NCBI GenBank assembly: GCA_018658105.1
Contig: JABHVW010000004.1
Coordinates: 62,001 to 126,000 of the forward strand
Origin: Candidatus Peregrinibacteria bacterium
GTDB taxonomy: Bacteria > Patescibacteriota > Gracilibacteria > UBA1369 > 2-02-FULL-48-14
Length of the DNA: 64,000 nucleotides
Direction: 5' to 3'
Made by a program: the position numbers and the translations under genes
Notes under the pieces: model-generated
Databases searched by the model: none
The model's input: only the letters and a program-made list of their open reading frames with translations
What the model was told of the DNA's origin: nothing
Shown here: positions 28,356-30,405 of the stretch, piece after piece
Layout: each line of letters begins with the position of its first letter
Numbering within the stretch: the stretch's first letter is position 1

Positions 28356-28622
28356 TCACATTCCATAAACTTGCGAATGGCCACCCACATCCAACATGAC
28401 TACCAAAGTATAATCTTCGTATTCTTCAAATATAATCCGCACATTTCCAGTGACAGAAATTGCCCGCTTACCTTTCATCGAACCAATCAGTGCATGGTTT
28501 TTCAGCAAAGGATAGTTGACATCACTTTGAAAAAGCCGAATCCTTTCTATAACTTTATTTTGTAACTTACGATCGAGCCTCTTAAAAGCTTTCTGGAAAC
28601 TTTTATGATAATCAATCTTCAT
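28356..28622 (-). CDS. RelE/YafQ-type mRNA interferase toxin
   Basis: An 88-aa small basic protein with RelE-fold features: KSFQKAFKRLDRKLQNKVIERI helices, NHALIGSMKGKRAISVTGNVRIIFEE, and a closing LDVGGHSQVYGM. The His and Arg pattern matches YafQ/RelE toxins that cleave mRNA at the ribosome. It overlaps the antitoxin gene by 11 nt, a classic type II arrangement. Cytoplasmic; autoregulated by the antitoxin-toxin complex in known examples. Confidence 0.85.
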   Translation of the reverse strand: MKIDYHKSFQKAFKRLDRKLQNKVIERIRLFQSDVNYPLLKNHALIGSMKGKRAISVTGNVRIIFEEYEDYTLVVMLDVGGHSQVYGM

Positions 28623-28899
28623 TCTGCAACTTCTTTAAGAATTCAATAGCCTCTTCACCTTCAAAAGCCCCACTCACATTCACCCCTCGCTTCGCCTCCT
28701 CAGAAGCCTTCAAAACTTCCTGTTCCTGCTGAATCGTAAGCCCATTCTCAGTCAACAAAGAAAAAGGAATCCCCTCTGAAATAATAATCTGTTTGAGATA
28801 AACCTTGATCGCACTGCTCATATCTAAACCAACTTTATCTAAGATTTTCTTAGCAGCTTTTTTAGTTTTTGGATCAATACGAACCTGAATTGTAGACAT
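28612..28899 (-). CDS. RelB/DinJ-type antitoxin
   Basis: A 95-aa antitoxin: N-terminal ribbon-helix-helix MSTIQVRIDPKTKKAAKKILDKVGLDMSSAIKVYLKQII, the DinJ/RelB DNA-binding and dimer region, then PFSLL and a charged C-terminal helix expected to neutralise the toxin. First gene of the pair and 63 nt from the tRNA-Trp, a typical accessory location. Confidence 0.88.
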   Translation of the reverse strand: MSTIQVRIDPKTKKAAKKILDKVGLDMSSAIKVYLKQIIISEGIPFSLLTENGLTIQQEQEVLKASEEAKRGVNVSGAFEGEEAIEFLKKLQNED

Positions 28900-28961
28900 A
28901 TGAAAAGATTAATACACACCCATCATACACCACCTGTAGTGACATTGTCAATACTAGATTT

Positions 28962-29035
28962 TGGCAGGGCCAGTAGGAATTGAACCCACACCAAGGGTTT
29001 TGGAGACCCGTGTACTACCATTATACTATGGCCCT
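28962..29035 (-). tRNA. tRNA-Trp, anticodon CCA
   Basis: Minus strand: acceptor 29035-29029 with 28972-28966, 4-bp D stem, anticodon loop CTCCAAA, T arm GTGGG/CCTAC with one G-U, G discriminator and encoded CCA. One mismatch (C-U) at the base of the anticodon stem. Its 5' end overlaps the stop codon of the GIY-YIG gene by 2 nt. Confidence 0.92.
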
Positions 29036-29267
29036 ATAGTGAATCTAAATAATCTCTTCCCTTACCTGTCTTAAAGAATTTCTCCCTTAGACCTGCATCC
29101 TTTTTCTCTGCAAAACTTTCTTTATGTACTAACTTAAACGGTCTTCTGCTTCTTGTCGACTTAACTCCACCTCGATAATGCTCCTTCAATCTTCTATCCA
29201 AATTCGATGTCATGCCAACATACCGCTTCTGATCTTTCAAACTCTCCAAGACATAAACTGTATACAT
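29034..29267 (-). CDS. Small GIY-YIG nuclease domain protein
   Basis: A 77-aa single-domain GIY-YIG protein: MYTVYVLES (the GIY-like YVY), KRYVGMTSNLDRRLKEH (the YIG-like YVG with the catalytic Arg region), then REKFFKTGKGRDYL. The frame is open five codons further to 29282, but family members start at MYTVYVL, so 29267 is preferred. The domain cuts DNA in homing endonucleases and in UvrC. It fills the space between an intact tRNA-Trp and a decayed tRNA-Trp copy, which suggests a tRNA-linked mobile unit. Confidence 0.85.
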   Translation of the reverse strand: MYTVYVLESLKDQKRYVGMTSNLDRRLKEHYRGGVKSTRSRRPFKLVHKESFAEKKDAGLREKFFKTGKGRDYLDSL

Positions 29268-29280
29268 AATATCCTTTCTC

Positions 29281-29367
29281 AAGGCCAGTAGGAATTGCCC
29301 GCCCCAGGCGGGTTGGAAACCCGTGTAGTTCCCCGCCTTTGGCGGGCTGCCATTATACTATGGCCCT
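29281..29367 (-). pseudogene. Decayed tRNA-Trp copy with palindromic insertions
   Basis: The 5' acceptor and D-arm half (29367-29347) and part of the anticodon and T/acceptor 3' half match the intact tRNA-Trp at 28962-29035, including TTGGAAACCCGTGTA versus TTTGGAGACCCGTGTA and GGCCAGTAGGAATTG. Two 15-bp GC-rich palindromes (29298-29312 and 29332-29346) replace the T arm and interrupt the D arm. No cloverleaf or CCA remains. Confidence 0.75.
29298..29346. repeat. Two CCCGCC-nnn-GGCGGG palindromes
   Basis: CCCGCC-CCA-GGCGGG at 29298-29312 and CCCGCC-TTT-GGCGGG at 29332-29346, identical stems with different 3-nt loops, 19 bp apart. Their GC content contrasts sharply with the A/T-rich window and both lie inside the decayed tRNA-Trp. 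They look like insertions of a very small palindromic element. I found no further copies in this window. Confidence 0.7.
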
Positions 29368-29436
29368 TTAGCGGAGTGAATTGTAGCCAAAGAGAGACAT
29401 TTCTGCAAGAATAGAAATAATTTAAAAAGCCTCCAC

Positions 29437-30405
29437 ATGACAAATTCTATAGCAATTTTGATTGCAGCAATGTTCGGCCCACGAATCGCTGCCCGCTTAA
29501 ACATAAAAATCGGCCACAAAAAAGTAGACGAACGGCTAAAACGAATACAAAGAAAAACCCCAGACACCAGCATTCAGGTGAAAAACTGGAACTGGCTCTA
29601 CAACTCACACAGTTTCATATTAATTGCCAGCATCATCAGCCCGCTATTTTTCATAAAATACCTACACCCTGCCCTGCACGGCATTTTTCACAAAGGCGAA
29701 TTCATCTTCTACAACAACGGCCAATACCTCGCCACTTTCGTCTACATCCTTCTCATACCGCTAGCATTCAACCTCGCCTTCATTCTATTCGCCAGTCTAA
29801 ACAAAGGAATAAAAACTTATTACGCAGCACGCAATCTTCAAGATCAATTATATTTCACACAAAAACTAAAAAGAGAATCACTCACAAAACTAGCTCAAAA
29901 ATACGACATGAATCCTGTACATAATCAGAGTATAAAATCACTAACTGGCATATTAATTGTTTGGATTTTAATCAACCTGCCATTTCAAGCTCTCGCCTTA
30001 AATTCATACACACAAATTCATGAGCAAGGTGTACGAACAAGCAACATTCTCGAACTGAAAACTCGTCAATATTCCTGGGATGAAGTAGACCGAATAGACA
30101 TTCAAGCAAAATACAAAGGTGAAGATATTACACCTCAAATTCTTCTGAACTTTGCAGACGGCAAAACTACAAATATTTGGGATTTTGGCCTCGTTACACG
30201 AGAAACAAGCACTTTTACTGGAGCTCTAGAACTTGCAGATTTAAACCAAGTTGTAATTTGGCCTAGCAGCATGCCAAACATAAATCACTTTCGAGAAAAC
30301 CTACGTAAACAAATTCAAGAAGTTTTCAACTTTAATTCAGACCCATCAAATTTCATTCCAGAAGGATCCCTACTCAAACAACTAATTAACGGAGACACAT
30401 TCTAA
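29437..30405 (+). CDS. Hypothetical multi-pass membrane protein
   Basis: A 322-aa protein with about three clear membrane segments (about 60-82, 103-128, 168-188) after a short basic N terminus, then a soluble C-terminal domain. The end domain starts IHEQGVRTSNILELKTRQYSWDEVDRI, a pattern seen in membrane proteins with a bacterial PH-like domain. Plus strand among minus-strand genes; convergent with the glycosyltransferase (4-nt overlap). Function unknown. Confidence 0.65.
   Translation: MTNSIAILIAAMFGPRIAARLNIKIGHKKVDERLKRIQRKTPDTSIQVKNWNWLYNSHSFILIASIISPLFFIKYLHPALHGIFHKGEFIFYNNGQYLATFVYILLIPLAFNLAFILFASLNKGIKTYYAARNLQDQLYFTQKLKRESLTKLAQKYDMNPVHNQSIKSLTGILIVWILINLPFQALALNSYTQIHEQGVRTSNILELKTRQYSWDEVDRIDIQAKYKGEDITPQILLNFADGKTTNIWDFGLVTRETSTFTGALELADLNQVVIWPSSMPNINHFRENLRKQIQEVFNFNSDPSNFIPEGSLLKQLINGDTF

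Follow-up and report, generated by a model that had tools for sequence, protein, structure and literature searches.

Chromosomal tRNA-associated GIY-YIG genes as probable isotype-specific homing genes: a tRNA-Trp locus of a Candidatus Peregrinibacteria bacterium and its relatives

In phages T4 and T6, SegB is a free-standing GIY-YIG homing endonuclease encoded in tRNA clusters, and according to its description (PMC13096335) it cuts inside tRNA genes, drives segmental or tandem amplification by way of microhomology shared by the 5' region of the tRNA and the 3' region of segB, is reported without isotype preference and has the motif RAWTSGAAC, which we read as the T-loop consensus of tRNAs in reverse complement. 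In bacteria of the Candidate Phyla Radiation (CPR), GIY-YIG-bearing insertions are described in rRNA genes (PMC11270868). Here, a stretch of 64,000 nt from a Candidatus Peregrinibacteria bacterium was analyzed (the window; coordinates are positions within it), on whose minus strand a 77-aa GIY-YIG nuclease gene lies between an intact and a decayed tRNA-Trp. The locus belongs to a widespread family of chromosomal GIY-YIG genes that are associated with tRNA genes and behave like isotype-specific homing genes. As in the case of the rRNA insertions, GIY-YIG genes are associated with structural RNA genes of CPR bacteria, whereas the word tRNA is absent from the main text of PMC11270868. SegB and the present genes both stand beside tRNA genes, and here, too, the 3' end of the gene can overlap the 5' end of the tRNA. 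Tandem arrays found in the present family resemble the segmental amplification by SegB. In contrast to SegB, which is found in phages, the genes described here reside in chromosomes of several bacterial phyla, form clades that follow the tRNA isotype, are accompanied by a broken second tRNA copy and by palindromes, and have UPF0213 as best match among solved structures.

It is likely that these are free-standing, isotype-specific, homing-type selfish nuclease genes of bacterial chromosomes, which have a tRNA gene as their target and duplicate it. The chromosomal and cross-phylum scale, the isotype fidelity, the geometry that spares one tRNA and the palindromes in tRNA loops or in place of whole arms appear to be new; a literature search did not find tRNA-associated GIY-YIG genes of bacterial chromosomes, although its limited coverage of subscription journals and bioRxiv makes this weak evidence of absence.

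The tRNA-Trp locus and its counterparts without the nuclease gene

The order on the minus strand is a promoter-like element, the dead tRNA-Trp copy A, the GIY-YIG gene and the intact tRNA-Trp copy B. Copy B (28962-29035) was identified as tRNA-Trp(cca) by ARAGORN and as tRNA by Rfam (64.5 bits), has an encoded CCA end and, as judged by a genome search, is the sole intact tRNA-Trp of the 1.12-Mb genome. The nuclease gene (29034-29267), taken from the list of open reading frames, starts with ATG and encodes a protein of 77 aa matching Pfam PF01541 (E=5.7e-14). Its TAG stop codon (29036-29034) overlaps copy B by 2 nt, copy B starting at the second base of the stop. Copy A (29281-29367) was recognized by its alignment to copy B, in which 20/21 nucleotides agree over positions 1-21 and 40/50 over positions 22-71, and was called a tRNA neither by ARAGORN nor by Rfam at E<=1. 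At its 3' acceptor end it passes into the nuclease gene's ribosome-binding region, and upstream of copy A lies the promoter-like sequence TTGCAG-17 nt-TACAAT (29380-29408, also on the minus strand). The whole unit comprises about 0.3 kb. A first-pass annotation, made from the letters of the window alone, had described the intact tRNA-Trp, the 77-aa gene with its 2-nt overlap and the broken copy, and this arrangement was confirmed. Neither an integrase nor cargo, which would mark an integrative element targeting tRNA genes, is located between the tRNA copies, where the GIY-YIG gene stands alone. An Rfam search at E<=1 over positions 28800-29600 revealed no intron; apart from the tRNA, it gave a single match, below threshold and to a different family. 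A self-splicing RNA surrounding the nuclease gene, as in mobile group I introns, was not detected at the locus.

When 30 relatives, including the window's own genome, were searched, a tRNA-Trp match was obtained in 25, and 19 loci from other genomes were fetched. None of these 19 tRNA-Trp loci contained a GIY-YIG gene or a second tRNA-Trp copy (0/19); relatives with the same duplicate tRNA but no GIY-YIG gene, which the first-pass annotation had named as counter-evidence, were not encountered among them. In four genomes of the same family (loci L324, L326, L329, and L334), a single tRNA-Trp is located beside orthologues of the glycosyltransferase genes that also neighbor it in the window, and these represent alleles of the same site without the nuclease gene. 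When aligned locally with the same-family relatives, the 110 nt preceding copy A scored 26.5 for L328 and 20.5 for L329 and L334, compared to a mean of 9.2 for shuffled sequence, whereas the region upstream of copy B aligned with them at the shuffled level. Among three loci of the same order but outside the family, L323 displayed a weaker upstream match and two displayed none. As the upstream region is conserved for copy A and not for copy B, copy A occupies the ancestral place and the live tRNA is now found behind the nuclease gene.

In an alignment of 42 sequences, residues Y5, Y16, G18, R26, H30, E62, and K66 are invariant or conserved to at least 90%. Y16 and E62 are invariant and R26 is present in at least 90%, as expected for a member of the GIY-YIG superfamily, and we take these Y, R, and E to be the catalytic residues of the domain. 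The best profile matches among solved structures were UPF0213 (BH0048 and EF2693) and SLX1 (E=7e-17, 7.7e-15, and 7.7e-7), and the fold is indicated by the profile matches 1zg2 and 1ywl. UPF0213 proteins share the single-domain size of the window protein. Several homologues in the class (L121, L138, L140, L164, L170, and L171) contain in-frame stop codons, mostly TGA, in agreement with what a reassignment of TGA to an amino acid in these lineages would produce.

Association of the family with tRNA genes and their isotypes

A protein search of 195 relatives gave matches in 127, and 150 of the matches were listed and analyzed, each oriented to its gene. A tRNA gene on the same strand within 300 nt was found for 88 of the 150 listed homologues, and the fraction falls with decreasing similarity to the window protein from 36/39 (E<=1e-14) through 20/26, 11/18, and 10/21 to 11/46. 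Some loci end at contig ends, and therefore the misses are partly technical. Of 89 nearby tRNAs, 88 were on the strand of the gene and one was on the opposite strand. The 88 tRNA-adjacent loci cover 19 isotypes, that is, all except Lys. The 30 homologues whose first 25 residues contain LY[TAS]G, among them the second copy from the window's genome (L002), served as an internal control, and none of them had a same-strand tRNA within 300 nt (0/30), as compared to 88/120 of the others. We take this group to be housekeeping, UPF0213-like proteins, from which the present unit differs in being tied to tRNA genes. In three further samples, taken from Bacteroidota and other CPR bacteria and with array copies counted, the association with tRNA genes persisted, as a tRNA was found within 300 nt of 25/38, 19/30, and 19/39 genes, the last batch (39 genes) repeating some regions of the first, and all near tRNAs but one were on the strand of the gene. 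The position in or beside the target gene which characterizes homing genes is thus observed for 88 of the 150 listed homologues and for 36 of the 39 best, and random genomic neighbors, the other counter-evidence named beforehand, are not what was found.

A second, partial copy of the same tRNA, defined by blastn at E<0.01, was detected in 59 of the 88 tRNA-adjacent loci and in 1/88 when the reversed tRNA was used as control; the remaining 29 had no detectable remnant. Where the whole tRNA lies downstream, the upstream remnant usually extends from position 1 to about 17-25 or 57-62, and a remnant downstream of the gene, with the whole tRNA upstream, usually consists of a 3' part, such that the geometry of whole tRNA and remnant is mostly complementary. 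In several loci, the stop codon of the nuclease gene is the tRNA's own TAA or TAG, meaning that the C-terminus is encoded by tRNA DNA. Among 111 fragments of at least 20 nt, the tRNA of the own locus was the best match in 72, a tie occurred in 33 and the tRNA of another locus was better in 6, and the duplication therefore looks local. The earlier proposal that the nuclease had arrived with a fresh tRNA is not favored by these matches, and it also runs counter to the promoter region being conserved at the broken copy and not at the intact one. In the Bacteroidota locus L403, 10.2 tandem copies of a 457-nt unit consisting of the nuclease gene and a 3' fragment of tRNA-Met were found with 99% matches, and other Bacteroidota arrays of nuclease gene and tRNA fragment comprise 4 copies of 379 nt (L404) and 3 copies of 345 nt (L405). 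In loci L011, L013, L016, L022, and L035, from the host family f19, the whole tRNA lies 110-260 nt upstream of the GIY-YIG gene, no tRNA remnant was detected and the isotype is not followed; in most of them a recurring hairpin-like sequence, CACGAAGTA...CTTCATGG, is situated between the tRNA and the gene.

A tree of the proteins, cut at 70 aa, was compared with 500 shuffles. For the 59 loci with a remnant, the isotype required 23 changes, whereas the shuffled mean was 42.7 (minimum 36; 0/500 reached 23), and the host family required 39 changes against 40.8 after shuffling, a value reached in 109/500 shuffles. When only one locus per host family and isotype was kept (n=46), the isotype required 21 changes versus 34.4 and the host family 35 versus 33.4. 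The nearest neighbor had the same isotype in 37/59 remnant loci, with 5.6 expected. Among loci with a broken copy, the tree of the nucleases thus tracks the isotype of the tRNA and not the host, as is characteristic for homing genes.

For a test outside this set, 84,980 species genomes were scanned with five Leu-clade proteins from CPR bacteria, and the best 80 of 217 relatives were kept, 4 of them being loci already used in the first set. Among these best 80, a tRNA was located within 300 nt in 71, always on the same strand (71/71), and was tRNA-Leu in 70 cases and tRNA-Asn in one; a partial tRNA copy was present in 64. The hosts are Bacteroidota, Ignavibacteria, Omnitrophota, and several CPR groups. 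In the pooled remnant loci, nearest neighbors from other genomes with at least 60% identity had the same isotype in 41/51 cases (3.9 expected).

Palindromes in the broken tRNA copies

Copy A contains the palindromes CCCGCC-TTT-GGCGGG (29332-29346) and CCCGCC-CCA-GGCGGG (29298-29312), two exact matches in the window, whereas 0.02 were expected. These had been assigned to the D and T arms; both are present, but one is inserted in the D loop and the other replaces 17 nt from the 3' side of the anticodon arm to the 5' side of the T arm, so that their positions do not exactly coincide with the D and T arms. A genome-wide count, as had been suggested, revealed no further CCCGCCnnnGGCGGG site in the 1.12 Mb of the genome, which places every site inside the dead tRNA-Trp. 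Copy A, when folded as RNA, reached -44.8 kcal/mol (z -3.9) and was far more stable than shuffled sequence because its two palindromes can pair together.

Across the family, GC hairpins (stem of at least 6, loop of at most 5) occurred in 48/84 remnant blocks versus 115/1536 background windows. Two types of palindrome were seen, namely a cleanly inserting 20-mer, CCTGCCTGCCGGCAGGCAGG, and shorter palindromes which replace tRNA sequence. The 20-mer accounts for 31 pure insertions across loci of both sets, of which 4 are inside a stem according to the ARAGORN brackets, whereas about 47% would be expected by position; the insertions fall on 17 distinct pairs of isotype and position and hence are not independent events. 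Replacing palindromes were found in 27 loci, and in 7 of these (Gln, Gly, Ile, Met, and Tyr) they took the place of precisely the 17-nt anticodon arm. The single Leu-clade locus at tRNA-Asn (L242) bears the 20-mer of the Leu clade. A restriction of the palindromes to tRNA copies, as first considered, had to be rejected, since relatives and other phyla contain them in dispersed form: 60 of the 71 sites of the 20-mer examined in genomes carrying Leu-clade genes are outside tRNA sequence, and relatives have CCCGCCnnnGGCGGG in places other than a tRNA context. The occurrence in both kinds of place indicates that the palindromes are dispersed repeats with a strong enrichment in dead tRNA copies, and the earlier idea that the decayed copy collects palindromic mini-elements finds support in a more specific form, with entry into tRNA loops or replacement of whole arms. 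In loci L265-L322, the 20-mer CCTGCCTGCCGGCAGGCAGG appeared as a dispersed palindrome common to genomes of different phyla and mostly outside tRNA sequence. When 20 palindrome-holding loci were compared with Rfam, none of its families attained the gathering score.

Homing-type spread and the competing explanations

If these genes behave as homing genes, the small GIY-YIG nuclease would cut the tRNA gene of the cognate isotype, and recombination repair would put the nuclease gene at the break and duplicate the local tRNA partly or fully, with the consequence that one whole tRNA remains by the gene, either downstream with overlap of the stop codon or upstream. The spare copy would then lose its function and take up palindromes. 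In the window, copy A occupies the ancestral promoter position and copy B, behind the nuclease gene, would probably be in the same transcript, from which RNase P would have to free it. A minimal homing-type unit, as had been proposed from the window alone, is well supported by the same-strand adjacency to tRNA genes, the isotype clades across hosts, the partial copies and the empty sites.

Several observations weigh against homing. In 28 of 87 tree proteins, those without a remnant, the isotype is not followed (22 changes versus 22.0 after shuffling), while the host family is also near chance (6 changes versus 6.8); as most of these loci belong to the host family f19, this group may differ. 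Agreement in isotype between nearest neighbors from other genomes in the pooled remnant loci drops to 12/32, 2/14, and 0/8 at identities of 50-60, 45-50, and below 45%, and an attempt to predict the isotype across phyla from the best Gracilibacteria protein failed with 6/63 (3/25, 1/19, and 2/19), a failure which covers Bacteroidota and other CPR loci. The closest solved relatives by profile are UPF0213 and then SLX1, the match to I-TevI being weaker. Cleavage by the nuclease and movement of the unit are inferred and were not observed, and homing would further require that the whole tRNA copy escapes from cutting.

It is well known that tRNA genes serve as attachment sites, and other elements might repeatedly have carried a small nuclease gene of a generic kind into an ordinary integration hotspot, for which partial tRNA copies are typical. 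However, this seems very improbable, given a unit of about 0.3 kb with the nuclease gene alone between the tRNA copies, a shared strand in 88/89 and 71/71 cases, and a nuclease clade, the Leu clade, that predicts the isotype (tRNA-Leu in 70 of 71 loci with a tRNA, among the best 80 of 217). The family is also nearly absent from phage, plasmid, and viral collections, and carriage by phages or plasmids as the usual state was rejected: a search of phages and viruses gave 0 viral contigs for the window protein and 5 for the Leu clade, a plasmid search with one Leu-clade protein gave 0 plasmids, and tblastn in phages gave 13 records, all below 60% identity. A system that serves the host, in which the nuclease acts on tRNA or structured DNA in DNA repair, tRNA quality control or defense and the palindromic copy is a regulatory or decoy RNA, would agree with the closeness to UPF0213 and the structure-specific nuclease SLX1, with the stable fold of the dead copy and with exact arm replacements that preserve a tRNA-like outline in some copies. 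It nevertheless appears improbable, as remnants often end at about position 24 or 60, where a whole tRNA is impossible, 29 of the 88 tRNA-adjacent genes lack a detectable remnant, and patchy presence together with isotype tracking across hosts fits selfish spread better.

Repetitive extragenic palindromic elements (REP/REPIN) are short dispersed palindromes tied to a mobilizing enzyme, the RAYT (Y1) transposase. By comparison, the palindromes described here might be the mobile unit and the nuclease their mobilizer, opening tRNA-gene hairpins in a structure-specific way so that palindromic hairpins enter loops or replace arms; the enzyme belongs to another class and, differently from REP elements, tRNA stem-loops are entered or replaced. 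This idea, which is compatible with selfish homing-type genes, is rather doubtful. The exact 17-nt replacements, the clean 20-nt insertions that mostly spare stems, the Leu-clade palindrome at tRNA-Asn and the excess of GC hairpins in remnants speak for it, whereas the many sites of the 20-mer and of CCCGCCnnnGGCGGG away from tRNA sequence and the limited independence of the insertions speak against it. In its fullest form, with a structure-specific nuclease on tRNA-gene hairpins and cognate palindromes spreading across phyla as matched sets of clade, isotype, and palindrome, such a mobile system is likewise considered rather unlikely.

If the genes are indeed of the homing type, the tRNA genes of several bacterial phyla harbor a set of tiny selfish nucleases with isotype specificity. 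Such a set would parallel, in chromosomes, the SegB system of phages, and it would account for one class of tRNA pseudogenes and for tandem tRNA arrays. The nucleases would form a natural series of enzymes of about 80 residues whose sequence is readable against the target, so that the way in which a single-domain GIY-YIG nuclease chooses its target could be tested. A separate puzzle, directly testable as well, is the exact exchange of palindromes for tRNA arms. Directly downstream of the intact tRNA-Trp of the window, a gene pair for a RelB-like antitoxin and a YafQ/ParE-like toxin is located at positions 28356-28899, and a YafQ-like match is likewise found near the empty tRNA-Trp site of L324.
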